From Luteimonas marina (lineage in GTDB: Bacteria > Pseudomonadota > Gammaproteobacteria > Xanthomonadales > Xanthomonadaceae), in assembly GCF_007859325.1 (NCBI RefSeq), contig NZ_VOHK01000005.1, positions 124,001 through 188,000 on the forward strand: 64,000 bases of DNA, in the 5' to 3' direction. The notes under the pieces were generated by a model, which saw only the letters and a list, made by a program, of their open reading frames with translations, was not told where the DNA came from and searched no databases. A program made the position numbers and the translations under genes. Positions 42,493 through 60,430 of this stretch are shown piece after piece. Numbering within the stretch: the stretch's first letter is position 1; every line of letters begins with the position of its first letter.

Positions 42493-42546
42493 TTGCGCGT
42501 TGCTTTGGCAGGGGCGCGCAATGCGGCTGGACTGGCTTCGGGGTTG

Positions 42547-42643
42547 CCCCCACCCCAACCCTCCCCCGCAAGCGGGGGAGGGGGCAAGAGCATGTGGCTT
42601 TTCGGCTCCCTCCCCCGCTTGCGGGGGAGGGTTGGGGCGGGGG
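42547..42643. repeat. REP-like inverted repeat, family 3 copy a
   Basis: CCCCACCCCAACCCTCCCCC-GCAAGCGGGGGAGGG is repeated in reverse order, giving two CTCCCCCGCnnGCGGGGGAG hairpins in mirror arrangement. It lies between the convergent phasin and DUF4832 genes. A single-arm relative is at 62631-62670. Confidence 0.9.
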
Positions 42644-42660
42644 CCAGCCAGCCCGCCGCG

Positions 42661-44190
42661 CTATGGCAGATCCGCGTTGAACTGGATCCGCTGCCCCGGC
42701 ACCAGCCGGTCGCTCTCGATGCCGATCTCCAGCGCGCCCGGCTGGTGCGGACCGATGCAGGCTTCGAACGTTTCCCCGCTTCCGGGCAGCAGTCCCTTCA
42801 GCGACGCCTCCGCACGCTGGCCGTTGGCCGCCGGCCAGGCGTCGTGGTAGATCGGCGCGATTCCTTCATTACGGATGTCCATGCGGACGCAGTCACCGTT
42901 GCTGGCGAGACCGGTGATGCGGAACGCGTAGCCGGTCGCCATCGCCGCCTGTTTGATCCGCGCGCGGGTCTGGTAGCGCGGCTGGTCGTTGCCGATCATG
43001 TAGGTGATGCGGTACTGCGCCGCGAACGATTCGAAGCTGCGGCCATACGGGCCATCCGGGTAGTCCAGCACGTGCTGCTGGTCGTAGTCGCTGTAGTAGT
43101 TGAACTCGCCGCCGGCGGGACTGTCGTGGTGGCGCTGTTCGCCGAAGAACAGCCAGGCCCAGCGGTTGTATTCCTGGTCGTTCCCGGAATGGGATTCGTG
43201 CATGAACGAATCGTCGAACAGCCCGAAGCGCAGCTGCCGCAGCGCGGGCACCGCGGAGAACGGCGAATAGGTGGAACTGGCCGCGTCGATCGACAGCGAC
43301 CACGGGGTCTGCGCGAACGTCGCGCCCAGGTGCTCGAGGAACTGCTGCTGGAAGGCCTTGGACGGGAAGGTCTGGCCCAGCGTCAGCGGGCCGTCCCAGA
43401 GGTGGTACTCGGCATATGAACCGAAGCCGGCCTGCAGGAAGGCCAGGCGCGGATCCTGGTCGTAGCGCTGCGCGAAGCGGGTGTAGAACTCCAGCACGAA
43501 CTGCTGCAGCAGCGTCGAGCGCCAGTCGGGAATGAAGGTCTCCCGCCCTTCGACGCTGCGGTAGCTCAACTCGTAGCCGGGCGAGTTGGCGACGTAGGCG
43601 GGAATCGAGATCCTCGTCTGGCCCGGATAGGTGTCGTGGAAGCGCAGGATCATCTGGTGCCCGCGCGCCGCGGCCGAGGCGAGCCTGGCGTCCACCGCCG
43701 ACCAGTCGTAGATGTCCTGGTCGTTCACCACGTCGCTGTACTTGAAGTACGCGAACTCCAGCTGCACGTCGGCGCCGAGGGCGTTGAGGTCGGACACGTT
43801 GTCGTTCCACAGCACGATCCCGGTCATCGGCTGCACGCGGTCGATGCGGCCCTGCAGCGGCACCGGCACGAAATCGGCGGCCGCACGCAGACGCCGGGGT
43901 CCCTTGCCGCCGGTGGCCCGGATCGCCGGCGCGGCGGCGCTGCCCTGCCGTGCCGTCGCCGGCGGCGACGCGCCGCGAACCGCCGGCGAATCCTGCCACG
44001 CGCCTGCCGCGACGCGCCCGGGCATCGACGCCACCGCGACGCGCACCTCCCGGATCAGCGCAACGCGCGAGGCTTCGGCCCGCGCACCGGTGCGCTGGCC
44101 GGCATCGATACCGTCGGCCTGCGACGCACCGACACTGGCCAGCACGACCGCGCCGGCAAGACTGCATACCAACGAACGGGACACTTCCAT
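42661..44190 (-). CDS. DUF4832-type secreted protein, candidate glycoside hydrolase
   Basis: 509 aa. The ATG at 44190 has GGAGG eight bases upstream and opens a signal peptide (MEVSRSLVCSLAGAVVLASVGASQA). After a low-complexity Ala/Arg stretch (30-105) comes a domain I assign to the DUF4832 group of TIM-barrel-like proteins of unknown activity: GIVLWNDN, LEFAYFKYSDV, GHQMILRFHDTYPG, RLAFLQAGFGSYAEYHLWDG, RFGLFDDSFMHES. The last 100 residues look like a beta-sandwich. Glu261 in SYAEYHLW occupies the place of a clan GH-A acid/base; Asp326, Asp327 or Glu332 could be the partner. It follows the AgaR-controlled receptor on the same strand, 74 bases away, so it probably acts on the polymer that the receptor brings in. 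No function is demonstrated as far as I know. Confidence 0.75.
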   Translation of the reverse strand: MEVSRSLVCSLAGAVVLASVGASQADGIDAGQRTGARAEASRVALIREVRVAVASMPGRVAAGAWQDSPAVRGASPPATARQGSAAAPAIRATGGKGPRRLRAAADFVPVPLQGRIDRVQPMTGIVLWNDNVSDLNALGADVQLEFAYFKYSDVVNDQDIYDWSAVDARLASAAARGHQMILRFHDTYPGQTRISIPAYVANSPGYELSYRSVEGRETFIPDWRSTLLQQFVLEFYTRFAQRYDQDPRLAFLQAGFGSYAEYHLWDGPLTLGQTFPSKAFQQQFLEHLGATFAQTPWSLSIDAASSTYSPFSAVPALRQLRFGLFDDSFMHESHSGNDQEYNRWAWLFFGEQRHHDSPAGGEFNYYSDYDQQHVLDYPDGPYGRSFESFAAQYRITYMIGNDQPRYQTRARIKQAAMATGYAFRITGLASNGDCVRMDIRNEGIAPIYHDAWPAANGQRAEASLKGLLPGSGETFEACIGPHQPGALEIGIESDRLVPGQRIQFNADLP

Positions 44191-44264
44191 GTCATCGACC
44201 TCCTTCGGATGGTGGCGGGACATCCCGCCGCCGCTCCGCGAAGCGAAGCGGCGGCGGGCCCGCG

Positions 44265-47102
44265 TCAGAACCGGTAGCTCAGGCCCAGCGTGAGCGAGCG
44301 ACCATAGCGATAGTAGCCCTGCGACAGCAGCGGATTGCCGTTGATGCTGTAGGTGTTCTCCTCGTCGAGCAGGTTGCTGCCCTCCAGCGAGACCGTGAAG
44401 CGGTCGTTGACGGCGTAGGAGGCGTGCGCGGTGAGCCAGGTGATGGGATCGGCCTGCTCGTTGTAGCCGCCGCCCAGCACGTTGATCGCGGTGACGAAGC
44501 CGTCGGTGCGGTCGGCGGTCGCGCCCAGCGACCACGGCCCCTTCTCGTAGGTCACGCCCAGCGAATACACCGAGGGCGCGATGCCTTCGAGCGGCCGCTC
44601 CTCGTCGTCGACCCAGCTCTTCGACCAGTTGCGCGTGTACTGCGCGCGGAAGCCGAAGCCGTTGTCCCAGAAATGCTGCAGGCCGGCCTCGAAGCCGCGC
44701 ACCTTGGCATGGTCGCCGTTGATCGGGCGCATCACGTTGAACAGGGTCGGCCCTTCGGTGACGGGATTGCCGTCGGTATCGAGGATCGGGCCGACGCCGA
44801 TGTCCTGGCCCGGCTCCCAGCTGGTGGTGATCTGGTTCTCGATGCGCTTGTGGAACACCGCGAAGTTGAAGATGGAGTTCTCGGCGAAGTACCACTCCAG
44901 CGACGCGTCGGCCTGGCGCGCGCTGTAGGGCTTGAGCTCGGCGTTGCCGCCGTAGATCTGGGTGAACTCGCCCCAGGACACGCTCTCGGTGGTGTTGGTG
45001 GGCGCCAGCTGGCTCACCGCTGGCCGCGCCATGGTCTTGGCCGCGCCCAGCCGCAGCTGCAGGCTGTCGGTGAAGTGCCAGGTGAAGTTCGCCGTCGGCA
45101 GCACGAAGGTGTAGTCGGACTCCTGGTAGACCGAGCTCGGTTCGTCGTACACCGCGCTGTAGTTGAAGGCGCCGAACTCGACGATGCTCAGGATCTGCGC
45201 GTCCCAGGCCTGGGCGGTCGTTGTCGTCTTCACCAGGCGCACGCCGGCGTTGCCGTCCCAGCGCTCGCCGGACAGGTCGAACTCGATGTAGCTGGCCAGC
45301 GTCTTCTCGCTGACGCGGTAGCTCTCCAGCGGATTCCACACCGGCGCCGCCCCCGCGTAGTCGTACGCGCCGCCGCCCGGCCGCGGAGTGCCGTTGTAGC
45401 CCTGCAGCGCGGCGATGTAGCTGGGCACGTCGAAGGCCAGGAACGAGCGCGGGAACACCGAGGACACGCCGCTCATGAAGTTCGGCAGGGTGAACGAATG
45501 CGAGATCACGTTGCCGCCCAGCGCGCCGACGTTGATCGCATTGGGCCCCGAGTAGTAGTCCGCGCCGCCGGTGATGGAATTGTTGACCAGGTCGCGCGCC
45601 TTGCGGCGATCGGTGCGGTTCACGCCGAACTTGATCCTGTCGATGCCGAGTTCGCCGACGAACAGGTCGCCGGCCAGCGAGCCGCCGGTGATGCGGTCGT
45701 CGATGTTGTCGCCGGCCAGCGAAAAGTAGTGCGTGTTGAAATCGTCGGCGCCGAACTGGCCGTTGGCCAGGCCTGCGATCAGGTCGCGGCCGTCGTCGAA
45801 CGTCGCCTCGACGTTGGGCATGCCGCCGTCGAGCCAGATCCGCGCCACGTTGGGCTGGTTCATGCGCAGCACCACGTAGCTGTCCAGGCCGCCGGAGTGG
45901 CGGCGCGAGGTCGAGCGGTAGACGTCGGCGCTGAGGGTGAAGTCGTCGTTGACCTTCCACTGGCCGTTGAGGCCGTAGAGGTCGGTGTCGACCACGCGGT
46001 ACTCGGTCTGGTTCAGCAGCTCGGGGTTGAGCCGCATCTCCGGATCGGGATCGTCCATGGTGAAGTCGGTGACGATGCCGTTGCTGATGGTCAGGTTCGA
46101 CCAGCGCCCGGGCGCGTACAGCGGGTAGTACGACTGCTGGTAGCCGACCTGGGGCGAATCGAGCCGCGTCTTCAGGCCGTCGAAGGAGACCTTCACGCTG
46201 TCGCTCGGCCGCCACTCGAGCTTGGCCGAGAACGCCTTGCGCTTCTTTTCCTCGAGGATCGAGCCGACCCGGAACTGGCCGGGGCCGATCAGGCCGTATT
46301 CCTCCGGGTCGAGTTCGCCGTTGCCGTTGGGGTCGATGTGCCCGCCCCAGGTATTGCCCCACAGCCAGCTCTCGTCGTTCGGGTCGGCGTTGCGGCTCCA
46401 GCCGCCGTCGTTGCCGGCGATGTCGGTGCGGTCCTTGCGCTGGCCGTAGACCAGGCCGAACAGCACGCCGAAGGTGTCGTCGGCGAAGGTGTTGCTGTAG
46501 ACGGCCGAGAGCTTGCCGCCGTTGTGCTCCGACATCAGGTTGCGGTCGCCCTCCAGGCGCACGGCGCCGTGCTGGCCGGTGCGGTCGAACGGACTGGCCG
46601 AACGCAGGTTGATCAGGCCGCCGATCGCGCCTTCGGTCAGCGAGGCCTGCGCGCCCTTGATCACGTCGGCGCCGCTGATGACGTCGGCCGGGAGCACGTC
46701 GTAGGCGAAATCGCGCCCGGCGCCGTCGGTGGCCAGGATGCGGCCGTTGAACGTGGTCAGCGTGTACTCCGGGCCGAGGCCGCGCACGCTCACCTTCTGC
46801 CCCTCGCCGCCCGCCGTGCGCGAGATGGAGACGCCGGTGATGTGGCTGAGCGAATCGGCGACGTTGTCATCGGGGAACTTGCCCAGTTCCAGTGCACTGA
46901 TCGAATCCTGCACCGTGGACGAGTTGCGCTTGAGCTCGGTGGCGCGCGCAAGGCTGCCGCGCACGCCCGTCACCACGATCGCGTCCAGCGACTCGATGTC
47001 GTCCTCGGTGTCCGTCTGCTGTGCGAAGGCCGCGGGCGATGCCAGCAGGGCCAGGGCGATACCGCAGAAAAGCGTGTTCCGGTGCAGTCGGGCAGTCTTC
47101 AC
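44265..47102 (-). CDS. TonB-dependent receptor of the amino-sugar locus
   Basis: 945 aa, with a GTG start preceded by GAGGAG at seven bases. The signal peptide (FCGIALALLASPAAFAQ) is followed by SLDAIVVTGVRGSL, a TonB-box-like region, then the plug (DSISALELGKFPDDNVADSLSHITGVSISR, VSVRGLGPEYTLTTFNGR, GGLINLRSASPFD) and a barrel ending GLSYRF. The LGKFPDxNVAxSL motif marks the Caulobacter/Xanthomonas oligosaccharide receptor group, distinct from the two xyloglucan receptors here. It diverges from agaR with repeated AgaR-like boxes between them, so it corresponds to the outer-membrane receptor of GalNAc regulons. It is likely to take up galactosamine-containing oligosaccharides. Confidence 0.92.
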   Translation of the reverse strand: MKTARLHRNTLFCGIALALLASPAAFAQQTDTEDDIESLDAIVVTGVRGSLARATELKRNSSTVQDSISALELGKFPDDNVADSLSHITGVSISRTAGGEGQKVSVRGLGPEYTLTTFNGRILATDGAGRDFAYDVLPADVISGADVIKGAQASLTEGAIGGLINLRSASPFDRTGQHGAVRLEGDRNLMSEHNGGKLSAVYSNTFADDTFGVLFGLVYGQRKDRTDIAGNDGGWSRNADPNDESWLWGNTWGGHIDPNGNGELDPEEYGLIGPGQFRVGSILEEKKRKAFSAKLEWRPSDSVKVSFDGLKTRLDSPQVGYQQSYYPLYAPGRWSNLTISNGIVTDFTMDDPDPEMRLNPELLNQTEYRVVDTDLYGLNGQWKVNDDFTLSADVYRSTSRRHSGGLDSYVVLRMNQPNVARIWLDGGMPNVEATFDDGRDLIAGLANGQFGADDFNTHYFSLAGDNIDDRITGGSLAGDLFVGELGIDRIKFGVNRTDRRKARDLVNNSITGGADYYSGPNAINVGALGGNVISHSFTLPNFMSGVSSVFPRSFLAFDVPSYIAALQGYNGTPRPGGGAYDYAGAAPVWNPLESYRVSEKTLASYIEFDLSGERWDGNAGVRLVKTTTTAQAWDAQILSIVEFGAFNYSAVYDEPSSVYQESDYTFVLPTANFTWHFTDSLQLRLGAAKTMARPAVSQLAPTNTTESVSWGEFTQIYGGNAELKPYSARQADASLEWYFAENSIFNFAVFHKRIENQITTSWEPGQDIGVGPILDTDGNPVTEGPTLFNVMRPINGDHAKVRGFEAGLQHFWDNGFGFRAQYTRNWSKSWVDDEERPLEGIAPSVYSLGVTYEKGPWSLGATADRTDGFVTAINVLGGGYNEQADPITWLTAHASYAVNDRFTVSLEGSNLLDEENTYSINGNPLLSQGYYRYGRSLTLGLSYRF

Positions 47103-47137
47103 GAGGGTCTCCTCAGGGCGGTGGCGGCGAGGTGGCT

Positions 47138-47201
47138 TAACGAAACGAAACCGAGCCTATACCATGTTTCGTTTAGCATCAATAGCGAAATTTAACGAAA
47201 T
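47138..47201. promoter_or_regulatory. Cluster of four AgaR-like boxes (consensus TAACGAAAC)
   Basis: TAACGAAACGAAAC at 47138-47151, GTTTCGTTTA (inverse orientation) at 47166-47175, TAGCGAAAT at 47183-47191 and TAACGAAAT at 47193-47201. They lie between the receptor and agaR start codons, which are divergent. AgaR repressors of the DeoR family bind repeated CTTTC-like half sites; TTTCGTT is the equivalent here. Confidence 0.7.
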
Positions 47202-47236
47202 GTCCCATACTTGCTGACAGGTAAGGAAGGGACCCC

Positions 47237-48016
47237 ATGGCCGCCAGCCGCGACACCAGCCAGAGACGCCTGCAGATCAGCGAACTCGTGCGCCAGCATG
47301 GCAGCGTGCAGGTCACCGCGCTGGCCCGGCGCTTCGGCGTGAGCATGCAGACGGTGCGCAAGGATCTGCGCTACCTCGCCGAGCGCGGGGTCATGGCCCG
47401 CGCCTACGGCGGCGCGATCGACAGCCACGTGGTCGGCGGCGCCCTCGCCGAGCCGCCCTACGAGGCCAAGCGCACCACCCACCTGGACGAGAAGCGCCGC
47501 ATCGGCCAGCGCGCCGCGGCCCTGGTCAAGCCCGGCGACACCATCGCCATCGATTCGGGCACCACCGCGATCCAGCTCGCCGAGGCGCTGCCGAACATCG
47601 AGGTGACCGTGGTCACCAACGATTTCGGCGTGCTGACCGCGCTGACGCCGAAGAACAACATCCACATCGTCATGCTCGGCGGTGAGCTGCGCCGCAAGAA
47701 CATGGCCTTCTATGGCGGCCTCACCGTCGAGGCGCTCGATGCACTGCACGTGGACCGGCTGTTCCTCGGCGTCGACGGCTTCGACCTGGAGCGCGGCATC
47801 ACCACGCACTACGAGCCCGAGGCCATGCTCAACCGCAAGATGGTCGAGGCCGCGCGGATCGTGGTCGCGATCACCGACAGCTCGAAGTTCGGCACCGTCT
47901 GCCTGCACCGCATCATCCCGGTGACCGAACTCAACGCGCTGATCACCGACACCGGTGCGCCGGAAGACGTGCGCGAGGCCAGCCGGCAGTTCGGATTCGA
48001 GCTGCTGCTGGCCTAG
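47237..48016 (+). CDS. agaR: DeoR-family repressor of amino-sugar catabolism
   Basis: 259 aa. The DeoR winged helix-turn-helix (residues 10-65, RLQISELVRQHGSVQVTALARRFGVS, TVRKDL) precedes a sugar-phosphate-sensing domain with IAIDSGTTAIQLA and TNDFGV. The length and fold are those of AgaR/GlpR. I call it AgaR because it borders a GalN catabolic set and repeated TTTCGTT boxes; the likely inducer is a galactosamine- or tagatose-6-phosphate. GGAAGGGA precedes the ATG. Confidence 0.85.
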   Translation: MAASRDTSQRRLQISELVRQHGSVQVTALARRFGVSMQTVRKDLRYLAERGVMARAYGGAIDSHVVGGALAEPPYEAKRTTHLDEKRRIGQRAAALVKPGDTIAIDSGTTAIQLAEALPNIEVTVVTNDFGVLTALTPKNNIHIVMLGGELRRKNMAFYGGLTVEALDALHVDRLFLGVDGFDLERGITTHYEPEAMLNRKMVEAARIVVAITDSSKFGTVCLHRIIPVTELNALITDTGAPEDVREASRQFGFELLLA

Positions 48017-48117
48017 CATCCGCGGCCGCTCCGGCCACGCGACGATTGAACTGTCATCCTGCCGGATGGCGTCATCCCGTTGGACGGCCCACCCCTTGCG
48101 CCGCCTGCTGCACGACA

Positions 48118-49245
48118 TCAACCGCCGCGTCCTTCCCGCAGGAACACGCGCCGTGCGTTGGCGTGATAGATCTTGTCGATCACCCCGCGCGGCAGCGCCA
48201 GCCCCGGCACGTCCGCGTCGATCATGTCCACGCGCTGCGACTCACCCGTCGCCAGGTAGCGCCAGTCCGAGGTCCACACGGCGTGCGCCGAAGCCTTGAA
48301 TTCGGCCGGATCCGACGCCGGATCCTGGGTCAGGTCGGTGCCGTAGAGGATCCGGTCCTGGTGGCGGATGAAGAAGTCGCGCACCCGCTCGCGGTCGCGC
48401 ACCGACTGGTACTGCACCTGGCTCATGCGCGCGGCGAGGTCGACCGTCGCGTCCGGGAACCGGTCGAGGAAGGCGCCCAGCCGATCCACGTCGTACTCCA
48501 GGCTGGCCATGTGCGCGCCGACGAAGCGCAGGCCCGGATGCGCGGCGACGAAGCGGTCGCGCGCCGCCATCTGGTCCTCGTAGGACGGCTGCTCCGGGTG
48601 CAGGTACATGTGGTACTGCGGATGGTTGCGGAAGTACTCGCGGTCGTTCTCGGTGGTCATCTGCTCCAGCGGCAGCCAGCAGTTGTGCGGCTCGCCCTGG
48701 TGGCCGACCAGGGCCACGTCCAGCGCGCGGATGCGTTCGGCGACGGGCGCGAGCGCGGGATGGTCGAGCATGATCAGCGCGCCGGCGGCGTCCTTCTCGA
48801 TCATGCCAACGTTCTTCCAGATCTTCACCGCGACCGCGCCCTGCGCCACCGCGCCGCCGATGTCCTCTTCGACCGCCGCCGCCCAGCCGGGCGAACCGAA
48901 GCCCTGCATCGAAAAGGTCGTCGCCCAGTGGAAACGCGACGGCTCCGCCTGCGCCAGCGCGAGCGCGGCCGCGCGCTGTTCCATGATCGTCGGGAAATCG
49001 GGGTAGTCGACGTTGATCGACAGCAGCTCGAAGCCGTCCGCCTGCGCCTGTTCGAGCAGGGCCGGCTGCACGGTGTTGGCGTGGACGTGCGCGTCGAACT
49101 TCGGCACGCGCGCGAAATCCTTGATCGCATAGGGCAGGTCGTCGGCGGGCGCGGGCCGTACCGCGGAGGAAGGCGCGGCGGACTCGCCGCAGGCCGCGAG
49201 CGCGACCAGCAGGAGGGGAAGGCAAACGGGAAAGCGGGCGCGCAT
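48118..49245 (-). CDS. Amidohydrolase-family lipoprotein (COG2159 type)
   Basis: 375 aa. The lipobox ALAAC with Cys19 shows it is exported and lipidated. The metal-dependent hydrolase barrel has the first pair His53 and His55 (FDAHVHAN), a Lys in AVKIWKN, His in VGHQGEPHN and VGAHMAS, and Asp in LYGTDLTQDP. The family includes decarboxylases and hydrolases such as the ACMSD group; nothing identifies the substrate. It is divergent from the GH36 gene across a promoter with an AgaR-like box, so it belongs with amino-sugar use. Because it is outside the cytoplasm it is unlikely to be the GalNAc-6-phosphate deacetylase, which acts after the kinase. Confidence 0.8.
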   Translation of the reverse strand: MRARFPVCLPLLLVALAACGESAAPSSAVRPAPADDLPYAIKDFARVPKFDAHVHANTVQPALLEQAQADGFELLSINVDYPDFPTIMEQRAAALALAQAEPSRFHWATTFSMQGFGSPGWAAAVEEDIGGAVAQGAVAVKIWKNVGMIEKDAAGALIMLDHPALAPVAERIRALDVALVGHQGEPHNCWLPLEQMTTENDREYFRNHPQYHMYLHPEQPSYEDQMAARDRFVAAHPGLRFVGAHMASLEYDVDRLGAFLDRFPDATVDLAARMSQVQYQSVRDRERVRDFFIRHQDRILYGTDLTQDPASDPAEFKASAHAVWTSDWRYLATGESQRVDMIDADVPGLALPRGVIDKIYHANARRVFLREGRGG

Positions 49246-49264
49246 TGCCGATCATCCGGTAATG

Positions 49265-49273
49265 TAACGAAAC
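49265..49273. promoter_or_regulatory. Fifth AgaR-like box, TAACGAAAC
   Basis: An exact copy of the box before agaR, in the 113-base AT-richer gap between the divergent amidohydrolase and GH36 genes. A dyad CAACAA-AA-TTGTTG lies at 49291-49304 beside it. Confidence 0.55.
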
Positions 49274-49358
49274 TTATATATAACATATCGCAACAAAATT
49301 GTTGCATCCTTGGGTTCGCTGGCGCAGAATGCCGGCGCACTCCTTCGGATCGCCCGCC

Positions 49359-51452
49359 ATGCCACCGATTGGACGCCGCACCGTCCTGAAGCTCGCTTCA
49401 AGCACCGCCGCCCTCGCCGCGCTCCCCTGGGCGTCCGCCGCGCGTGCCGAGCCCTCCCACTCGGCACGCGCGGTGGCGCACGACGACCTGCTCTCGATCG
49501 CCTTCGACGCGCAGCTGCGCACGTCGATCTCCCGCGCCGGCACCGCGCTCACCCCGTTCCAGCCGAGCGAAAGCCTGCTGCTGGCGGACGACGGCACGGT
49601 CGAGGCCTTCGCCTTCGTCGACGAGCGCATCGAGCCGGTCGCCGACGCCCGCCACGGCGCCGGTCGCCGGCACGTCGTCCGCGGCCGTTCGCGCGAAGGC
49701 GTCGACAAGACCGTCGAGGTCACCTTCTTCGAGCGCTACCCGGGCATGGCGATCCTCGTCGCGACCTACCGCAACGGCGGCAGCGCACCGCTGGCGGTCG
49801 CCGGCTGGCGCAACGCCGCGCACGAACTGGCGCACGCGCCGGGCGGATTCTGGAGCTTCTCCGGCGCCACCCACGAGGATCGCCGCGACTGGGTGCAGCC
49901 GCTGGACGCGGATTTCGACCAGCGCAACACCCTGGCGATGGACGCCGAGGACTACGGCGGCGGCACGCCGCTGGCGAACGTCTGGCGCCGCGACGCCGGC
50001 CTCGCCGTCGGCCACGTCGAACCGGCGCCGAAACTGCTCGACCTGCCCGTGCGCAGGACCGCGGGCGGCGCCAGCATCGCCGTCGAAGGCGCCAGGGCGA
50101 TCACGCTGGCGCCGGGCGAATCGTTCGCCACCGAGCGCACCCTGCTGTGCGCGCACACCGGCGACCACTTCGCGCCGCTGCAGCTCTACCGCGGCTTCAT
50201 GCAGGACCAGGGCGTCGCCGCGCAGCCGGTGCCGGAATCGGCCTTCGCGCCGATCTGGTGCGCCTGGGGCTACGAACGCGACTTCACCACCAAACAGGTG
50301 CTGGACACCCTGCCCAAGGTGCGCGAGATGGGCCTGGAGTGGGCCGTGCTCGACGACGGCTGGCAGACCAACGAAGGCGACTGGGCGCTGGATCCGCGCA
50401 AGTTCCCGCGCGGCGACGCCGACATGCGCGAGTTCGTCGCCGCAATCCGCGCACAGGGCCTGCGCCCGCGCCTGTGGCTGGCGCCGCTGGCGGCCGACCC
50501 GGGCAGCGACGTGCTGCACCAGCATCCGGACATGCTGCTGCTCGACGAGTGGGGCAGCTTCCAGAAGGTCAGCTGGTGGAACGCGCTCACCCAGTGCCCC
50601 GCCTACCAGCCGACCATCGATTACTACGTCGCGCTGGTGAAGAAGATCATCGGCGACTGGGGCTTCGAAGGCCTCAAGCTCGACGGCCAGCACCTCAACG
50701 CCGTCGCGCCCTGCTACAACCCGGCGCACAAGCACGCGCACCCGACCGATTCGTGCGAGAAGCTGCCGGAGTTCTGGGCCGCGATCCACAAGGCCGCGCG
50801 CGACGCGAATCCCGAGGCGGTGGTCGAACTCTGCCCCTGCGGCACCGCGTTCGCGTTCCACAACCTGCCGGCGACCGACCAGTTCCCGTCCTCCGACCCG
50901 CTGTCCTCATGGCAGGTGCGGCACAAGGGCAAGACGGTGAAGGCGCTGATGGGCCACGGCAGCAGCTATGCCGGCGACCACGTCGAACTCAGCACCGGCG
51001 GCCGGGACTTCGCGTCGAGCGTCGGCATCGGCGCGGTGATCTCGACCAAGTTCACCTGGCCGCGCGACACCGACCGCCCGAACCCCGGCCCGCTGCCGCC
51101 CGAAGGCTTCGTGCTGACGCCGGAGAAGGAAGCGCTGTGGCGCAAGTGGATCGACCTCTACAAGCAGCACATGCTGCCGAAGGGCGAGTACCTCGGCGCG
51201 CTGTACGACATCGGCTTCGACAGGCCCGAGGCGCACGCGATCGCGAAGGACGGCGCGCTGTACTACGCGTTCTACGCAGACGCCTGGGACGGCCCGCTGC
51301 AGCTGCGCGGCCTCGGCAAGGGCCGCTGGCGCGTGCGCGACCTGTTCAACGACGCCGACCTCGGCGCCGTGGACGCGCGCGCGGACACGCTGCAGGCGTC
51401 GTTCGAGGACTTCCTGCTGCTGCAGGCCACGCCGGAGGGCGAGGCCGCATGA
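49359..51452 (+). CDS. GH36 alpha-galactosidase or alpha-N-acetylgalactosaminidase, Tat-exported
   Basis: 697 aa from the ATG at 49359, which gives a twin-arginine signal GRRTVLKLASSTAALAALPWASAARA. Frames back to 49299 add residues before it and are not preferred. A beta-sandwich N-domain precedes the barrel: WCAWGYERDF, WAVLDDGWQTNEGDW, LRPRLWLAPLAADPGS. Nucleophile Asp442 lies in GLKLDGQH; acid/base is probably Asp513 in FPSSDPLSSWQ. GH36 retains configuration and removes terminal alpha-galactose; some members take alpha-GalNAc, which the AgaR context favours. The stop overlaps the permease start, ATGA, so the whole run to agaK is one operon. Confidence 0.88.
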   Translation: MPPIGRRTVLKLASSTAALAALPWASAARAEPSHSARAVAHDDLLSIAFDAQLRTSISRAGTALTPFQPSESLLLADDGTVEAFAFVDERIEPVADARHGAGRRHVVRGRSREGVDKTVEVTFFERYPGMAILVATYRNGGSAPLAVAGWRNAAHELAHAPGGFWSFSGATHEDRRDWVQPLDADFDQRNTLAMDAEDYGGGTPLANVWRRDAGLAVGHVEPAPKLLDLPVRRTAGGASIAVEGARAITLAPGESFATERTLLCAHTGDHFAPLQLYRGFMQDQGVAAQPVPESAFAPIWCAWGYERDFTTKQVLDTLPKVREMGLEWAVLDDGWQTNEGDWALDPRKFPRGDADMREFVAAIRAQGLRPRLWLAPLAADPGSDVLHQHPDMLLLDEWGSFQKVSWWNALTQCPAYQPTIDYYVALVKKIIGDWGFEGLKLDGQHLNAVAPCYNPAHKHAHPTDSCEKLPEFWAAIHKAARDANPEAVVELCPCGTAFAFHNLPATDQFPSSDPLSSWQVRHKGKTVKALMGHGSSYAGDHVELSTGGRDFASSVGIGAVISTKFTWPRDTDRPNPGPLPPEGFVLTPEKEALWRKWIDLYKQHMLPKGEYLGALYDIGFDRPEAHAIAKDGALYYAFYADAWDGPLQLRGLGKGRWRVRDLFNDADLGAVDARADTLQASFEDFLLLQATPEGEAA

Positions 51453-52360
51453 GCACTGCACTCGCGCAGCCCAAGCGCGCATGGGTCGCCTACGCCCTGG
51501 TCACGGTGGCCCTGTGGGGCGCCTGGGGCGCGCTGGCGGGATTGTCGGCCGAGCACGGTTTCCCCGACACGCTGGTGTACTGCGTGTGGGCGCTGACGAT
51601 GATTCCGCCGGCGCTGTTCATCCTCTGGCGCGCGGGCTGGCGGCTCGACCGCAGCCCGCGCGCGGTCGGCTACGGCATGGCCATCGGCCTGCTCGGCGCG
51701 GGCGGACAGATGGTGCTGTTCAAGGCGCTGACCATCGGGCCGGCGTATTTCATCTTCCCGATCATCTCGCTGTCGCCGGTGGTGACCATCGCGCTGTCGT
51801 TCGCGCTGCTGCGCGAGCGCACCGGCCGGCTCGGCGCGCTCGGCATCGTGCTGGCGCTGATCGCGCTGCCGATGCTCGACCTGTCGTTCGGGCGCGGCGA
51901 TTCACAGGGGCTGGGCTGGTTCCCGCTGGCGCTGCTGATCATGGCCGCGTGGGGCGTGCAGGCCTACTTCATGAAGCTCGCCAACAACAGCGTCAGCGCC
52001 GAGAGCATCTTCTTCTACATGATGCTCGGCGCCCTGCTGCTGGTGCCGGTGGCGTGGCGCATGACCGACTGGACGCAGCCGGTGAACCTCGGCCTCGACG
52101 GGCCGTGGATGACCGCCGCGATCCAGATCCTCAACGCGATCGGCGCGCTGACCCTGGTCTACGCGCTGCGCTACGGCAAGGCGATCGTGGTCGCGCCGCT
52201 GACCAACGCCGGCGCGCCGCTGGTGACCGCGGTGCTGTCGCTGCTGTTCGCCGGCGTGCTGCCGGGACCGCTGAAGGCGGTCGGCCTGGTGCTGGCGCTG
52301 GTGGCCTCGCTGCTGCTGGTGCTCGAACCCGAACGCGATCCCCCGGCACCGGCCCACTGA
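51449..52360 (+). CDS. DMT/EamA-type permease, probable amino-sugar importer (AgaP-like)
   Basis: 303 aa with ten hydrophobic segments in two EamA repeats (about 12-145 and 155-290). WGAWGALAGLSAEHG, ALTIGPAYFIFPIISLSPVVTIALSFALLRER and ALRYGKAIVVAPLTNAGAPLVTAVLSLLFAG are the conserved blocks. Members of this family act as sugar permeases in several Proteobacterial and Bacteroidetes loci. The position between a periplasmic GH36 and a cytoplasmic kinase (AgaK) suggests it brings free GalN/GalNAc into the cell. No PTS components are present, consistent with permease plus kinase. Confidence 0.8.
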   Translation: MSTALAQPKRAWVAYALVTVALWGAWGALAGLSAEHGFPDTLVYCVWALTMIPPALFILWRAGWRLDRSPRAVGYGMAIGLLGAGGQMVLFKALTIGPAYFIFPIISLSPVVTIALSFALLRERTGRLGALGIVLALIALPMLDLSFGRGDSQGLGWFPLALLIMAAWGVQAYFMKLANNSVSAESIFFYMMLGALLLVPVAWRMTDWTQPVNLGLDGPWMTAAIQILNAIGALTLVYALRYGKAIVVAPLTNAGAPLVTAVLSLLFAGVLPGPLKAVGLVLALVASLLLVLEPERDPPAPAH

Positions 52361-52376
52361 ACGGATACACGACGCC

Positions 52377-53669
52377 ATGCATGCAATGCTCGACCTGATC
52401 GAACGGCACAAACGCGGCGAAGCCCTCGGCATCGCCTCGGTCTGCTCCGCGCACCCGATCGTCATCGAGGCCGCGCTGCGCCACGCGCTGCGCGTCGATG
52501 CGCCGGTGGTGCTGTTCGAGGCGACCTGCAACCAGGTCAACCAGGACGGCGGCTACACCGGCATGACACCGGCGGACTTCGTGCGCTTCGTGCACGGCAT
52601 CGCCGATGCGGTCGGGTTCGACCGCGCGCGCATCGCGCTCGGCGGCGACCACCTCGGGCCGAACCCGTGGACCGCGCTCGACGCCGCCGCCGCGATGGAC
52701 AAGGCCGAAACGATGGTCGAAGCCTACGTCGCCGCCGGCTTCCGCAAGATCCACCTCGATTGCTCGATGGCCTGCGCCGGCGATCCGGTGCCGCTGCCCG
52801 AACCGGTCATCGTCGAGCGCGCCGTGCGCCTGTGCCGCGCCGCCGAAGCCGCGCACGCACACGCGGGCGGCGAGCCGCCGGTCTACGTCATCGGCACCGA
52901 AGTCCCCGTGCCGGGCGGCGCAACCGAGGCGATCGAAGGGCTGGAGGTGACCGCGCCCGAGGCCGCGCTGGCCACCATCGCGGCGCATCGGGAAGCCTTC
53001 GCCGCCGCCGGGCTCGGCGACGCTTGGACGCGGGTGATCGCATCCGTGGTGCAGCCGGGCGTCGAGTTCGACCACCACGACGTCGTCGACTACCGACCCG
53101 AGGCCGCGCGCACGCTCAGCGACGCGATCGCGGGCGTGCCGGGCATGGTGTTCGAGGCGCACTCCACCGACTACCAGACGCGCGAGGCGCTGGCCGCGCT
53201 GGTGCGCGACCACTTCGCCATCCTCAAGGTCGGCCCCGGCCTCACCTTCGCCCTGCGCGAGGCGCTGTGGGCGCTCGACGCGATCGAACGCGAGACGATC
53301 GAACCCGAGGCGCGCGCGAACCTGCGCGAGGTCGCGACCGCGCGCATGCGCGAACGCCCCGAGTACTGGCAGCGTTACTACCACGCACAGGGCCGGCAGC
53401 TCGACATCGACCTGTCCTGGAGCCTGAGCGACCGCATCCGCTACTACTGGCCCGATCCCGCGATCGAGCAGGCCCGCGAGCGCCTGTTCGCCAACCTGCG
53501 CGACCGGCCGCCGCCGCTGCCCCTGCTCAGCCAGCACCTCCCCCACGCCCTGCACGCGCTGCGCCACGGACGCGCCACCCGCGACCCGCACGCGCTCGTC
53601 ATGGCGCACGTGACCACCGTCCTCGATGATTACCACCGTGCCTGCCATCCCCACCATGACCACCGTTGA
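52377..53669 (+). CDS. agaZ: D-tagatose-1,6-bisphosphate aldolase subunit GatZ/KbaZ family
   Basis: 430 aa, the family length. IASVCSAHPIVIEAALRHAL, FEATCNQVNQDGGYTGMTPADF, GGDHLGPNPW and KIHLDCSMACAGDP are hallmark blocks. In E. coli KbaZ and GatZ stabilise the catalytic class II aldolase KbaY/GatY in galactosamine and galactitol use; no KbaY-type partner is in the window. The ribosome-binding site is poor; an alternative ATG lies nine bases on. The gene overlaps agaS at its end. Confidence 0.92.
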   Translation: MHAMLDLIERHKRGEALGIASVCSAHPIVIEAALRHALRVDAPVVLFEATCNQVNQDGGYTGMTPADFVRFVHGIADAVGFDRARIALGGDHLGPNPWTALDAAAAMDKAETMVEAYVAAGFRKIHLDCSMACAGDPVPLPEPVIVERAVRLCRAAEAAHAHAGGEPPVYVIGTEVPVPGGATEAIEGLEVTAPEAALATIAAHREAFAAAGLGDAWTRVIASVVQPGVEFDHHDVVDYRPEAARTLSDAIAGVPGMVFEAHSTDYQTREALAALVRDHFAILKVGPGLTFALREALWALDAIERETIEPEARANLREVATARMRERPEYWQRYYHAQGRQLDIDLSWSLSDRIRYYWPDPAIEQARERLFANLRDRPPPLPLLSQHLPHALHALRHGRATRDPHALVMAHVTTVLDDYHRACHPHHDHR

Positions 53670-54819
53670 ACACCTGGGCGTTCCCGAGACGGAACTCGCC
53701 GCTTCGGGCGCGCTGTGGACCGCGCGCGAGATCGAACAGCAGCCGCGCATGCTCGAACGCACGCACGCACTGCTGGCAGGCCTGCGCGATCGGATCGAAG
53801 CCTTCGTGGCGCCGGTCGCCCGCGACCCGGCCGCGCGCATCATCCTCACCGGCGCCGGCACCTCGGCCTACATCGGCCAGTGCCTGGCGCCGCTGCTCGA
53901 CCGGCAGCTGGCCGCCCGCGTGGACGCCGTACCGACCACCGACATCGTCAGCTGCCCGCGCCTGCACCTCCACCCCGACCAACCGCTGCTGCTGGTCTCG
54001 TTCGGCCGCTCGGGCAACAGCCCGGAAAGCTTGGCCGCGGTCGAACTGGCCGAAACCCTGGTGCGCGACGTGCGCCACCTGGTGGTGACCTGCAACCCCG
54101 AAGGCGCGCTCGGCCGCGTCGCCGCGCGCCGGGCGATGACGCTGCAGCTGCCGGAGGAAACCCACGACACCAGTTTCGCCATGACCTCCAGCTTCAGCTG
54201 CATGATGTACGCCACGCTCGCCGCGCTGGCGGGCACCGACGCGCTGGAAAGCCGCATCGCGCCGATCGCGGCGGCCATGGCGCGCGTGATCGTGGACGCG
54301 CGGCCGGCGCTGCAGGAACTCGCGCTGCGCGGCTTCGATCGCGTCGTCTACCTCGGCAGCGGACCGTTCCAGGGACTGGCGCGGGAAGCCTGCCTGAAGC
54401 TGGGCGAGCTGACCAATGGTGCGGTTGCGACCTGCTTCGATTCCCCGCTCGGCTTCCGCCACGGACCCAAGACCTTCGTCACCGAACGCACCCTGGTCGT
54501 GGTGTTCGTCTCCAACGACGCGCCCACCCGCGCCTACGACCACGACCTGGTCGACGAGTTGCGCCAGGACGGCTGCGCCGCGCGCGTGATCGAGGTCAGC
54601 GCGCGGCCGCGGCCGCAGGCGGCGCGCGACACGCTGGCGGTGGCGGGCATGGATTCTGCGCAGGACGTCGACCTGCTCTGGCCTTACGCCGCGGCCGCCC
54701 AGGTCTACGCCTTCCTCGCCTCGCGCGCGCTCGGGCTGTCGCCGGACACGCCCAACCGGCAGGGCACGGTGAACCGCGTCGTGCAGGGCGTGCGCATCCA
54801 TCCGCTGGCCGACGGATGA
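53656..54819 (+). CDS. agaS: SIS-domain galactosamine-6-phosphate deaminase/isomerase
   Basis: 387 aa. Two SIS domains are seen: ILTGAGTSAYIGQ and SFGRSGNSPES in the first, YLGSGPFQGLAREACLKLGELT and GFRHGPKTF in the second. AgaS turns GalN-6-phosphate into tagatose-6-phosphate and ammonia. Two starts are possible; I take the ATG at 53656 (TTVEHLGVPETELAASGALWTAREI) over 53626, since it leaves a shorter overlap with agaZ, but neither has a clear ribosome-binding site. The stop overlaps agaK as ATGA. Confidence 0.92.
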   Translation: MTTVEHLGVPETELAASGALWTAREIEQQPRMLERTHALLAGLRDRIEAFVAPVARDPAARIILTGAGTSAYIGQCLAPLLDRQLAARVDAVPTTDIVSCPRLHLHPDQPLLLVSFGRSGNSPESLAAVELAETLVRDVRHLVVTCNPEGALGRVAARRAMTLQLPEETHDTSFAMTSSFSCMMYATLAALAGTDALESRIAPIAAAMARVIVDARPALQELALRGFDRVVYLGSGPFQGLAREACLKLGELTNGAVATCFDSPLGFRHGPKTFVTERTLVVVFVSNDAPTRAYDHDLVDELRQDGCAARVIEVSARPRPQAARDTLAVAGMDSAQDVDLLWPYAAAAQVYAFLASRALGLSPDTPNRQGTVNRVVQGVRIHPLADG

Positions 54820-55787
54820 GCGTGGACTGCTACCTCGGCGTGGACGGCGGCGGCACCAAGACCCGCTTCGCCCTGGTCGACGCCGACGCGCGCCTGCTCG
54901 CCGAGGCGCAGTGCACGACCACCTACCATCCGCAGGTCGGCCTCGACGGCGTGCGCGCCACCCTGGCCGACGGCCTCGAGCGGGTGCTGCACGTCGCGGG
55001 CAGGGCGCGCGACGACATCCGCCACGCCTTCTTCGGGCTGCCCGCCTACGGCGAGGACAGCCGCGTCGCGCCCCTGCTCGACGCCCTTCCGCGCGATCTC
55101 CTCGGCCACGACCGCTACGCCTGCGACAACGACATGGTCTGCGGCTGGGCCGGCTCGTTCGCCTGCGCCGACGGCATCAACATCGTCGCCGGCACCGGCT
55201 CGATCGGCTACGGCCAGCGGCGCGGTGTCGCCGCGCGCGCCGGCGGCTGGGGCGAAGCGTTCTCGGACGAGGGCTCGGCGTACTGGATCGCCGCGCAGGG
55301 CATGAACGCGTTCTCGCGCATGAGCGACGGCCGCCTGCCGAAGGGTCCGCTGCACACCCTGCTGCGCGAGCGCCTGCAGCTGGAGCACGACCTCGACCTG
55401 TGCGCCCGCGTCTACGGCGAGCAGGCCCTGTCGCGCGGCGAACTCGCGCAGCTCTCGCCGCTGGTGGCCGAGGCCGCACGGCAGGGCGACGAAGCGGCAG
55501 ACGACATCTTCCATCGCGCCGGCGCGGAGCTCGCGCGGATCGCCGATGCGCTGCGCGGCGCGCTCGCGTTCGCCGACGGCGAGCGCGTTCCCGTCTCGTG
55601 GTCGGGCGGCGCCTTCAGCGCAGGGGAGCTGCTGCTGGCGCCGTTCACGCGCGCGCTGCAGGCCTGCAGTCTGACGTTCGAACCGCACGCGCCCCTGCAT
55701 GCACCGCATTTCGGCGCTGCGCTGTATGCGATGCATCTGGCAGCCGGGCGCGATGCGGCAACCGCAAGTCCACCTTCGTCGCCATGA
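54816..55787 (+). CDS. agaK: BadF/BadG-type amino-sugar kinase
   Basis: 323 aa, of the ASKHA fold. YLGVDGGGTKTRFALVD is the phosphate-1 loop, CDNDMVCGWAG contains the catalytic Asp, IVAGTGSIGYG is phosphate-2 and WSGGAFSAGELLL the adenosine loop. Relatives phosphorylate GlcNAc, or GalNAc in AgaR regulons (AgaK). In this operon it would phosphorylate imported GalN or GalNAc at C6. The start is set by the overlap with agaS. The operon ends here, at a family 1 repeat. Confidence 0.88.
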   Translation: MSVDCYLGVDGGGTKTRFALVDADARLLAEAQCTTTYHPQVGLDGVRATLADGLERVLHVAGRARDDIRHAFFGLPAYGEDSRVAPLLDALPRDLLGHDRYACDNDMVCGWAGSFACADGINIVAGTGSIGYGQRRGVAARAGGWGEAFSDEGSAYWIAAQGMNAFSRMSDGRLPKGPLHTLLRERLQLEHDLDLCARVYGEQALSRGELAQLSPLVAEAARQGDEAADDIFHRAGAELARIADALRGALAFADGERVPVSWSGGAFSAGELLLAPFTRALQACSLTFEPHAPLHAPHFGAALYAMHLAAGRDAATASPPSSP

Positions 55788-55980: not shown

Positions 55981-58900
55981 TCAACCGTGCGGCTGCGACA
56001 GCTGCTTCCGCGGCAGCGGTTCGTCCATCCTGTCGCCGAGCATGCGCCGCACCGCGACGAAGAACACCGGGATCAGCAGCAGGCCGAGGAAGGTCGCGAA
56101 CAGCATGCCGCCGATCACGCCGGTGCCGATCGCGTGGCGGGCGTTGGCGCCGGCGCCAGAGGAGATCGCCAGCGGGGTGACGCCGAGGATGAAGGCCATC
56201 GAGGTCATCAGGATCGGACGGAAGCGCAGGCGCGCGGCCTCGACCACCGCCTCGCGCAGGGTCTTGCCGGCGGCGCGCTCGAGCACCGCGAACTCGACGA
56301 TCAGGATCGCGTTCTTCGCCGCCAGGCCGATCACGGTCACCAGGCCGATCTTGAAGAAGATGTCGTTCGACAGCCCGCGCATCATCGAGAACACCACCGC
56401 GCCGAGGATGCCCAGCGGCACCACCAGCAGCACCGAGACCGGGATCGACCAGCTCTCGTACAGCGCCGCCAGGCACAGGAACACCACCAGCACCGACAGC
56501 ACCAGCAGCAACGTCGCGGTGTTGCCGGCGATGATTTCCTGGTACGACAGGCCGGTCCAGTCGTAGCCGATGCCCTGCGGCAGCTGTTCGGCGACGATGT
56601 CCTCCATCGCGCCCATCGCCTCGCCCGAACTGCGGCCCGGCGCCGGCGAGCCGTTGATGTTCACCGCCGAATAGCCGTTGTAGCGGGTCAGCGACGGCGT
56701 GTTCATCGCCCACTCCGACTTCACCACGTTGCTCAGCGGGATCATCGCCGCGTTGCCGTCCAGCGATTCCTGCGTCGAGGGCGAGTAGAAGCGCGAGAAC
56801 GCCTCCGGCCCCATGCGGAAGGGCGCGTCGGCCCGCATGATCACGCGCTTGATCCGGCCCTCGGAGAAGTAGTCGTTGACGTAGACCGGCGCCAGCATCA
56901 GCTGGATCGCGTTGTACACGTCGCCGACCGACAGTCCCATCGCCTCGGCCTGCGCACGGTCGACGTCGAGCTGCAGCTGCGGCGAGTCGGCCAGCGTGTT
57001 CGGGCGCACGCCGGTGAGCAGGTCGGGCTGCTGCGCCGCGGCGCCGAGCAGGGTGTCGCGCGCCTGCCCAAGCGCCTCGCGGCCGAGCCCGGCGCGGTCC
57101 TGCAGATACATGTCGAAGCCGCCGAACTGGCCCAGGCCCTGGATCGTGGGCAGGTTGACCACGAAGATCGAGGCGTCGCGGATGCCGTACAGCGCGCCAT
57201 TGGCCTGCTGGATGAACTCGGGCACGGTCACGTCGCGCTCGTCCCAGTGCTTGAGCCGGACGAAGGCCATGCCCACGTTCTCGCCCTGGCCGACGAAGCT
57301 GAAGCCGGCGATCTGCATCATGCCCTCATAGCCGTCGATGTTCTCGAGCGTACCGCGCACCTGCTCGAACACCGCCTGCGTGCGCTGCAGCGTCGCGCCG
57401 GGCGGCAGCTGCACGATGACCATCGCGTAGCCCTGGTCCTCCTCCGGCACGAAGCTCCCGGGCAGCCGCGTGAACAGCACGCCGCAGGCGACGGTCAGCG
57501 CCGCGAACACGACCATCCAGCGCGGCGCATGCCGCACCGCACTGCCGATGTGGCCGACGTAGGTGTGGCTGACGCGGTCGTAGGCCTTGTTGAAGTTGCG
57601 GACGATCCAGTTTTCCTTCTTCTCGCCGTGCGCGGCGTGCTGCTTGAGGAAGGTCGCGCACAGCGCCGGGGTGAAACCGAGCGCGAGGAACGCGGAAAAA
57701 CCCATCGCCATCGCGATGGTGATCGCGAACTGCTTGTAGATCTCGCCCGAGGCGCCGCCCTGCAGCGCGCTGGGGATGAACACCGCCGCCAGCACCACGG
57801 TGATCGCGACCACCGCGCCGGTGATCTGGCCCATCGCCTTCTCGGTCGCTTCCACCGGCGGCAGCTTTTCCTCGGCCATGATCCGCTCGACGTTCTCGAT
57901 CACCACGATCGCGTCGTCGACCACGATGCCGATCGCCAGCACCATCGCGAACATCGTCAGCTGGTTGATGGTGAAGCCGATCAGGCTCAGGCCGAGGAAG
58001 GTGCCGAGCAGCGCGACCGGGATCACCAGGGTCGGGATGATCGTGGCGCGGATGTTCTGCAGGAACAGCAGCATCACCAGGAACACCAGGATCACCGCCT
58101 CGATCAGCGTCTTGACCACTTCCTCGATCGAGATGCGCACGAAGGTGGTGCTGTCGAAGGGCGTGTACCACTCCACGCCCGCGGGGAACGAAGTCTGCAG
58201 CTCGTCCATGCGCGTGGTGATGGCCTCGGCCACCGCCAGCGCATTCGCGCCCGGCTGCAGCATGATCGCCACCGCGCCGGTCGGCTGGCCGTTGAACCTG
58301 GCGTCGAAGCCGTAGCCCTGGGCGCCGACTTCCACGCGCGCGACGTCGCCCAGGCGCACGATCGCGCCATCGCCGTCGGCGCGCAGGATGATCTCGCGGA
58401 ACTGCTCGGGCGAGCTGAAGCGGCCTTCCGCGGCGACCGTGGCGGTGAAGCCCTGTCCTTCCGGCGCGGGATCGGCACCGATCGAGCCGGCGGCGAACTG
58501 CGCGTTCTGCCCCCGCACCGCCGCCAGCACCTGCGACGCCGACAGTCCGAAGCCCTGCAGCTTGTCCGGGTCGAGCCAGACGTTCATCGCGTACTCGGAG
58601 CCGAAGTGCTGGGTGTTGCCCACGCCCGGCACGCGCGCCAGCGGTTCGAGGATGCGCGAGGCGATCAGGTCGTTGAGCGCGTTGCGGTCCATCGCCGGAT
58701 CGCTCGAGCGCAGGCCGATCACCATCAGGAAGCCGCTGTTGGCCTTGGCCACGACCACGCCCTGCTGGGTCACTTCGGTCGGCAGCCGCGGCGTCGCCAG
58801 GGACACCTTGTTCTGCACCTGCACCTGGGCGATGTCGGGATCGGTGCCGGTCTCGAAGGTCAGCGTGATCGAGACGCGGCCGGACGAGCTCGAGGTCGAA

Positions 58901-59136
58901 TTGAAGTACAACAGGTTGTCGATGCCGGTGAGCTGCTGCTCGATGACCTGGGTGACGGCCTGCTCGGCGGTCTGCGCGTCGGCGCCGGGATAGGTGGCGT
59001 TGACGGTCACCTGCGGCGGCGCGACGTTGGGATACGACTCCACGCCCATGTTGAGCAGCGCGATCACGCCGCTGAGCGAGATCAGGATCGCGATGACCCA
59101 GGCGAAGACCGGGTGGTGGATGAAGAACCGGGACAT
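55981..59136 (-). CDS. RND efflux pump, inner-membrane transporter (AcrB/MexB-type HAE1)
   Basis: 1051 aa with the full 12-helix, two-periplasmic-loop build. It starts MSRFFIHHPVFAWVIAIL and has VVDDAIVVIENVE with proton-relay Asp407 and Asp408 in TM4. The C-terminal half repeats the pattern (GLAAKNAILIVEFA). HAE1 pumps expel hydrophobic drugs in a tripartite complex with a periplasmic adaptor and an outer-membrane channel. The adaptor gene ends six bases upstream; no channel gene is in the window, so an OprM/TolC-like partner is encoded elsewhere. Confidence 0.96.
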   Translation of the reverse strand: MSRFFIHHPVFAWVIAILISLSGVIALLNMGVESYPNVAPPQVTVNATYPGADAQTAEQAVTQVIEQQLTGIDNLLYFNSTSSSSGRVSITLTFETGTDPDIAQVQVQNKVSLATPRLPTEVTQQGVVVAKANSGFLMVIGLRSSDPAMDRNALNDLIASRILEPLARVPGVGNTQHFGSEYAMNVWLDPDKLQGFGLSASQVLAAVRGQNAQFAAGSIGADPAPEGQGFTATVAAEGRFSSPEQFREIILRADGDGAIVRLGDVARVEVGAQGYGFDARFNGQPTGAVAIMLQPGANALAVAEAITTRMDELQTSFPAGVEWYTPFDSTTFVRISIEEVVKTLIEAVILVFLVMLLFLQNIRATIIPTLVIPVALLGTFLGLSLIGFTINQLTMFAMVLAIGIVVDDAIVVIENVERIMAEEKLPPVEATEKAMGQITGAVVAITVVLAAVFIPSALQGGASGEIYKQFAITIAMAMGFSAFLALGFTPALCATFLKQHAAHGEKKENWIVRNFNKAYDRVSHTYVGHIGSAVRHAPRWMVVFAALTVACGVLFTRLPGSFVPEEDQGYAMVIVQLPPGATLQRTQAVFEQVRGTLENIDGYEGMMQIAGFSFVGQGENVGMAFVRLKHWDERDVTVPEFIQQANGALYGIRDASIFVVNLPTIQGLGQFGGFDMYLQDRAGLGREALGQARDTLLGAAAQQPDLLTGVRPNTLADSPQLQLDVDRAQAEAMGLSVGDVYNAIQLMLAPVYVNDYFSEGRIKRVIMRADAPFRMGPEAFSRFYSPSTQESLDGNAAMIPLSNVVKSEWAMNTPSLTRYNGYSAVNINGSPAPGRSSGEAMGAMEDIVAEQLPQGIGYDWTGLSYQEIIAGNTATLLLVLSVLVVFLCLAALYESWSIPVSVLLVVPLGILGAVVFSMMRGLSNDIFFKIGLVTVIGLAAKNAILIVEFAVLERAAGKTLREAVVEAARLRFRPILMTSMAFILGVTPLAISSGAGANARHAIGTGVIGGMLFATFLGLLLIPVFFVAVRRMLGDRMDEPLPRKQLSQPHG

Positions 59137-59142
59137 GGCGGC

Positions 59143-60379: not shown

Positions 60380-60430
60380 ATTTAATTTCTGTACCGCGCA
60401 GTATACTAGTTGGAAAGGTGAACAAACCCC
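60380..60430. promoter_or_regulatory. Divergent control region with AGTATACT palindrome
   Basis: The AT-rich patch TTTAATTTCTGTACCGCGCAGTATACTAGTT stands out in GC-rich surroundings, 76 bases from the adaptor start. AGTATACT (60400-60407) is a perfect palindrome and reads TATACT on both strands, so it may serve as a minus 10 element or part of a TetR operator. I find no good minus 35 partner. Confidence 0.35.

Follow-up and report, generated by a model that had tools for sequence, protein, structure and literature searches.

Within the 64,000-nucleotide stretch of Luteimonas marina DNA analysed here (the window), positions 42661-55787 hold nine genes that read out of two divergent spacers. 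We propose, with a probability of roughly 0.6, that this locus serves the AgaR-repressed utilisation of glycans containing alpha-linked galactosamine (GalN), most likely alpha-1,4-linked polymers of GalN and N-acetylgalactosamine (GalNAc) of the Pel or galactosaminogalactan type. The proposal draws on the observed gene content and synteny, on conserved operators, on the lineage and active-site residues of a glycoside hydrolase family 36 (GH36) enzyme, on the fold and invariant glutamates of a barrel protein, and on co-occurrence across genomes. An earlier note, made from the sequence alone, had described nine genes with AgaR-like boxes and overlapping codons; coordinates, family matches, and box statistics confirm this layout, which is as follows.

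42661..44223, (-): secreted DUF4832-type TIM-barrel protein with a C-terminal beta-sandwich, putative glycoside hydrolase, 520 amino acids
44265..47102, (-): TonB-dependent outer-membrane receptor (TIGR01782, 585 bits), kept in Proteobacterial loci
47139..47201: AgaR-type operator in the spacer between the receptor gene and agaR, with AACGAAAC at 47139 and 47144, an inverted copy at 47166-47173, and AACGAAAT at 47194-47201
47237..48016, (+): agaR, DeoR-family repressor (NF040755, 258 bits)
48118..49245, (-): Amidohydro_2 lipoprotein (lipobox LAAC) with a complete metal-ligand set, candidate periplasmic deacetylase
49266..49295: AgaR-type box in the amidohydrolase/GH36 spacer, made up of AACGAAAC at 49266-49273 plus a degenerate second half
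49359..51452, (+): GH36 enzyme of the FpGalNase lineage with a twin-arginine leader, predicted exo-alpha-galactosaminidase
51449..52360, (+): EamA/DMT permease, predicted inner-membrane galactosamine transporter
52377..53669, (+): AgaZ, GatZ/KbaZ family (TIGR02810, 634 bits)
53626..54819, (+): AgaS, galactosamine-6-phosphate deaminase/isomerase family
54816..55787, (+): AgaK, BadF-type amino-sugar kinase

A novel version of the AgaR regulon

The operators are the most direct sign of common control. The two divergent spacers hold every one of the four AACGAAAC sites in the window (expected 0.66), and none of 100 shuffles reaches four. The inverted pair AACGAAAY-N15-TTTCGTTT at 47144-47174 is the sole mismatch-free occurrence in the 3.9-Mb genome. 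The operator recurs in the aligned spacers of related loci, with at least two AACGAAA boxes in 29 of 31 receptor-agaR spacers and at least one in 37 of 38 amidohydrolase-GH36 spacers, and AACGAAA is about 209 times as dense in both spacer types as in the remaining sequence of these loci. The AgaR of the window scores 2 bits below the curated NF040755 cut-off of 260, which its orthologue in G669, a genome outside Luteimonas, passes with 326 bits. Downstream of the GH36 start, genes overlap (GH36/EamA by 4 nucleotides, AgaZ/AgaS by 44, and AgaS/AgaK by 4), and the genes from GH36 to AgaK therefore likely form a single operon.

An AgaR regulon for GalNAc and GalN use in Proteobacteria was reportedly described by Leyn et al. 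in 2012. The features of such regulons are present here: an AgaR gene, a kinase, AgaS, AgaZ, and repeated GAAA/TTTC-type boxes conserved across genera. The AgaR-type control and galactosamine catabolism put forward in the earlier note are supported by operators conserved across related loci and by the linkage of GH36 to AgaS, AgaK, EamA, and AgaZ. The regulons of Shewanella and other Proteobacteria (PMC2996990) share AgaR, an outer-membrane receptor, a permease, AgaK, AgaS, and AgaZ with the window locus, which differs from them in having an EamA-type permease, a secreted GH36 enzyme of the galactosaminidase type, a lipoprotein amidohydrolase, and a DUF4832 barrel, and in lacking AgaA. In these respects the locus is a novel version of the AgaR regulon. 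No gene for the GalNAc-6-phosphate deacetylase AgaA lies in the window locus (the genome has one nagA elsewhere) or was seen in the GH36 loci surveyed below, an absence that favours GalN as the sugar entering the cell. AgaA marks AgaR regulons of the GalNAc type, and the GalN variant can do without it.

A GH36 enzyme of the galactosaminidase lineage

The closest solved relatives of the window GH36 are the FpGalNase entries from Flavonifractor, which align over residues 80-691 with an E value of about 1e-69, whereas GH36 alpha-galactosidases match only locally, with E values of 1e-10 or worse. By this comparison the enzyme does not look like an ordinary alpha-galactosidase and belongs to the galactosaminidase lineage. 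FpGalNase is the galactosaminidase that removes A-type blood alpha-D-galactosamine and works on the A antigen together with a deacetylase; its conserved active-site residues are W317, D346, D347, W387, K461, and D463, and it is distinguished by Y464, C513, and D532 (PMC11762096). Eight of these nine positions (all but Y464) are identical in 81 of 81 homologues and shared by the window GH36, whose predicted nucleophile and acid are D442 and D513. Based on the similarity to FpGalNase, the kept active-site residues, and the twin-arginine leader (the G669 homologue has a lipobox instead), the enzyme is most likely an exported exo-alpha-galactosaminidase. It is unlike FpGalNase in that it is distant in sequence, bears that leader, has Gly at the Y464 position, and sits inside a full catabolic regulon.

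The neighbouring amidohydrolase gene is divergently paired with GH36 across Proteobacteria, an arrangement that recalls the deacetylase-galactosaminidase pair of Flavonifractor. Its product has residues such as metal-dependent amidohydrolases have (an HxH pair, two more His, and one Asp), all of them unchanged across 21 homologues; neither sequence comparison nor a profile search found a solved relative. The family of FpGalNAcDeAc differs from Amidohydro_2. That the window protein might be a deacetylase is, by this analogy, a guess, and one more apt to fail than to hold.

A DUF4832 barrel tied to the regulon in Luteimonas

The barrel protein scores 15.1 bits (E 0.019) against DUF4832 (PF16116), under the cut-off of 29.2 bits, and a PF16116 search of its own genome gave no match because the protein is too divergent for the profile. 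Its 50% identical homologue in G669 passes the cut-off with 31.6 bits, and true DUF4832 proteins give significant pairwise alignments with it; on these alignments, we take it to be a genuine DUF4832 relative. An AlphaFold model from 30 diverse sequences (pLDDT 88.6, pTM 0.89; an earlier, poor model from 10 sequences with pLDDT 55 was set aside) places a beta-sandwich after a TIM barrel. Among solved folds, beta-amylases come closest (3voc, Z 18.0, rmsd 4.0 over 276 residues), ahead of beta-galactosidases of clan GH-A. In model numbering, E155 after beta-4, E256 at the end of beta-7, G149, G151, H157, G217, and D221 do not vary across the 30 aligned sequences or, one misaligned non-homologue aside, across a larger homologue set; the two glutamates are E272 and E373 of the full-length protein. 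Catalytic pairs of GH14 and clan GH-A enzymes occupy the same beta-4 and beta-7 placement, and the invariant pair in the model thus suggests a glycoside hydrolase. The bond that it would cut, by endo-cleavage of a GalN polymer, we infer.

The endo-galactosaminidases of GH114, GH135, GH166, and GH191 (PMC12054363) have the reaction type proposed here, and the window barrel is unlike that group in resembling beta-amylases and clan GH-A. The GH135, GH166, and GH191 folds are absent from the fold matches listed for the model, which leaves them possible. GH114 (PF03537) was considered as the missing endo-enzyme and rejected for Proteobacteria, with one match in about 30 genomes and none in the L. 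marina genome; the window barrel itself has no PF03537 match, DUF4832 being its only one. Further barrel homologues were not found in the 369 sampled genomes of the class, and a search for viral relatives gave none.

How firmly is this protein coupled to the regulon? Among 37 Luteimonas genomes, the barrel occurs in 8 and GH36 in 10, and GH36 is found in 8 of 8 genomes with the barrel versus 2 of 29 without it (Fisher p 1.2e-6, for congeners that are not independent samples). The barrel gene adjoins the receptor in seven of the eight. It is unlinked from GH36 in four (G008, G011, G025, and G031): in the first three, the receptor and barrel genes are found together at a distance from the GH36 cluster, next to a second AgaZ-AgaS pair, and both are preceded by AgaR boxes, and in G031 a solitary barrel gene has the same operator upstream (L140:9612-9645). 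The earlier suggestion that the DUF4832 protein and the GH36 enzyme are functionally coupled to the AgaR regulon gains from this co-occurrence and from the operators at unlinked copies.

Outside the genus, the G669 homologue is encoded in a locus of the order TBDR-GH27-ROK kinase-NagA-DUF4832, and a second locus of that genome reads AgaK-AgaS-AgaZ/receptor-EamA-amidohydrolase-GH36-thioredoxin-AgaR, in which the thioredoxin-like gene between GH36 and agaR lies at L142:12037-12546. Since the other five homologues of the Luteimonas type are orphans, we conclude that barrel and regulon are strongly linked in Luteimonas and only patchily so elsewhere. A search of the family to which G669 belongs gave four barrel homologues, none of them in an amino-sugar locus.

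Support for a role on galactosamine polymers comes from the biosynthetic side. In streptococci and clostridia, DUF4832 genes are found next to pel operons. One of them encodes SIR_1591 of Streptococcus intermedius, a DUF4832 barrel that dissolves Pel-dependent aggregates (PMC12345266). By its published fold description, SIR_1591 resembles the window protein in having a TIM barrel and a DUF4832 C-terminal domain, with beta-amylases and beta-galactosidases as nearest folds; it belongs to a biosynthetic pel operon, whereas the window barrel belongs to a catabolic regulon. On plasmid pTC2 of Paenarthrobacter aurescens (L169:7016-13503), a DUF4832 gene stands beside an exopolysaccharide cluster of the Pel type with galE, a GHL15 protein, and a PelF-type DUF3492 glycosyltransferase.

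Spread of the core locus

We surveyed GH36 neighbourhoods at 80 loci from named genomes of several phyla, counting genes within 10 kb. AgaS is present in 73 of the 80, AgaK in 72, EamA in 70, and AgaZ in 67. The GH36 link, which the earlier note called new here, is widespread, in Proteobacteria as in Actinobacteria. The closest relatives of the locus come from Luteimonas, with GH36 identities of up to 84%; loci are present in L. saliphila, L. rhizosphaericola, and Luteimonas RC10. Carriers further include Pseudoxanthomonas, Stenotrophomonas, Rhodanobacter, Xanthomonas, Brevundimonas, Asticcacaulis, Massilia, Duganella, Streptomyces, Micromonospora, and others, as well as a plasmid of Burkholderia arboris. 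A close-type AgaR occurs in the Proteobacterial loci, to which the receptor and the amidohydrolase are confined, and in Streptomyces loci a class II aldolase is added, as is a GntR regulator. Fourteen barrel-less genomes carry, within the locus or next to it, an NPCBM-domain GH27 enzyme that may be a GalNAc-specific counterpart (L008, L009, L018, L021, L023, L025, L026, L053, L059, L062, L064, L072, L077, and L080). The core of the AgaR/GH36 locus is thus widespread, and Luteimonas adds an extension that may attack a polymer.

Two smaller observations concern individual lineages. In Kribbella and Cellulomonas (L032, L043, and L075), GH36 is paired with an AgaR-like regulator and a GH4 enzyme, and other conserved genes adjoin. 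In Asticcacaulis (L059, L064, and L072), a tryptophan-halogenase-like gene follows a TonB receptor.

Proposed pathway, substrate, and alternatives

In the model that we favour, of which we infer all activities, the order of steps, and the substrate, the secreted DUF4832 barrel would cleave the polymer chain internally and the TonB receptor would take up the resulting oligomers. Once these are in the periplasm, acetyl groups may be stripped off by the lipoprotein amidohydrolase, and GH36 would remove terminal alpha-GalN. GalN would enter the cytoplasm via EamA and be phosphorylated by AgaK, deamination by AgaS would yield tagatose-6-phosphate, and AgaZ, with a partner encoded outside the locus, would feed this product into glycolysis. 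Inducer binding by AgaR would release both divergent promoters.

Which polymer might this be? Fungal galactosaminogalactan also contains galactose. Pel consists chiefly of repeating alpha-1,4-linked GalN and GalNAc (PMC9135694), and alpha-1,4 linkages and GalN/GalNAc are features of galactosaminogalactan, too (PMC3213105). The earlier note had argued for a mixed polymer of galactose and galactosamine; the part concerning alpha-linked galactosamine is strengthened by the GH36 lineage and the link between DUF4832 and Pel, and the part concerning galactose is weakened, as the locus has no galactose pathway genes. Because a galactosamine pathway is present, galactose genes are absent, and the GH36 enzyme is unlike alpha-galactosidases, Pel, built from GalN/GalNAc alone, fits at least as well as the fungal polymer. 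That galactosaminogalactan is the dedicated substrate, a special case of our proposal, is accordingly unlikely: its linkage and composition speak for it, and GH114 occurs elsewhere in about 6 of 12 sampled Actinobacterial genomes with the same GH36 (a raw count, without a background rate), yet the GH36 lineage and the missing galactose genes point away from it, the L. marina genome has no GH114, and nothing sets this polymer apart from Pel.

Several observations weigh against our proposal. Most other genera keep the remaining locus with neither the barrel nor another endo-enzyme alongside and, as the L. marina genome lacks GH114, oligosaccharides could be the substrate there; small GalN-containing glycoconjugates are possible, above all in barrel-less genera. 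An occurrence of DUF4832 homologues mainly outside amino-sugar contexts, named in the earlier note as evidence that would speak against it, is what is found beyond Luteimonas, where one of six homologues of the Luteimonas type lies in an amino-sugar locus and the others are orphans (G620, 76% identical, G1232, G1165, G1138, and G1102), and is not what is found within the genus. The Luteimonas genomes behind the co-occurrence statistic are related to one another, all 81 homologues have Gly where FpGalNase has Y464, and the nagA elsewhere in the genome could serve GalNAc-6-phosphate.

These points lend some weight to a reading in which the receptor would import oligosaccharides, the amidohydrolase would deacetylate them, and GH36 would remove GalN from small alpha-GalN or alpha-GalNAc glycoconjugates (lipopolysaccharide cores or A-antigen-like ends), the barrel having been added late in Luteimonas and playing a secondary part. 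The lack of an adjoining endo-enzyme in most genera, the joint action of FpGalNase and a deacetylase on the A antigen (PMC11762096), and the 14 loci that have instead a GH27 enzyme, related to alpha-galactosidases and alpha-N-acetylgalactosaminidases, would all suit it. We nonetheless consider it rather improbable, if the best placed of the alternatives, since the Luteimonas barrel gene follows the regulon even if unlinked and since Pel aggregates are a known target of one DUF4832 barrel. Least probable is an ordinary regulon for GalNAc or GalN monosaccharides, in which the barrel would bind carbohydrate or be structural and GH36 would act as an unspecific alpha-galactosidase: AgaR, AgaK, AgaS, and AgaZ do make up the standard pathway, as in Shewanella, but GH36 resembles FpGalNase far more than alpha-galactosidases, and the barrel has invariant catalytic-type Glu at beta-4 and beta-7.

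We return to alpha-linked galactosamine glycans, most likely polymers, as the preferred substrate. In a bolder form, which we put forward tentatively and with somewhat less than even expectation, the locus would be a dedicated feeding pathway on alpha-1,4-galactosamine exopolysaccharides, combining under AgaR control a secreted DUF4832 endo-galactosaminidase, a periplasmic deacetylase of an amidohydrolase kind for which no such role is known, an exo-enzyme like FpGalNase, and the breakdown of GalN, with a shorter version in soil Proteobacteria and Actinobacteria. The open-access literature that we searched yielded no bacterial pathway feeding on Pel or galactosaminogalactan. These polymers hold together Pseudomonas and mould biofilms, and the locus offers a testable pathway for consuming them as well as candidate enzymes for biofilm dispersal. 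It also supplies a catabolic setting for FpGalNase-type GH36 enzymes outside the gut and, from the catabolic side, ties the uncharacterised DUF4832 family to galactosamine polymers.

Neighbouring features

Just beyond the 3' end of the DUF4832 gene, palindromic repeats ccctcccccgcaagcgggggaggg at 42545-42645 may be a terminator or REP-like. Directly downstream of the aga operon, and convergent with it, translations indicate genes for an RND efflux pump (inner-membrane pump and adaptor) and a TetR-like regulator (55981-60324, (-), and about 60400-61302, (+)), seemingly unrelated to the operon. Upstream of the locus, the gene at 34423-36216, (+), encodes a secreted GH43-like protein, judging by its translation.

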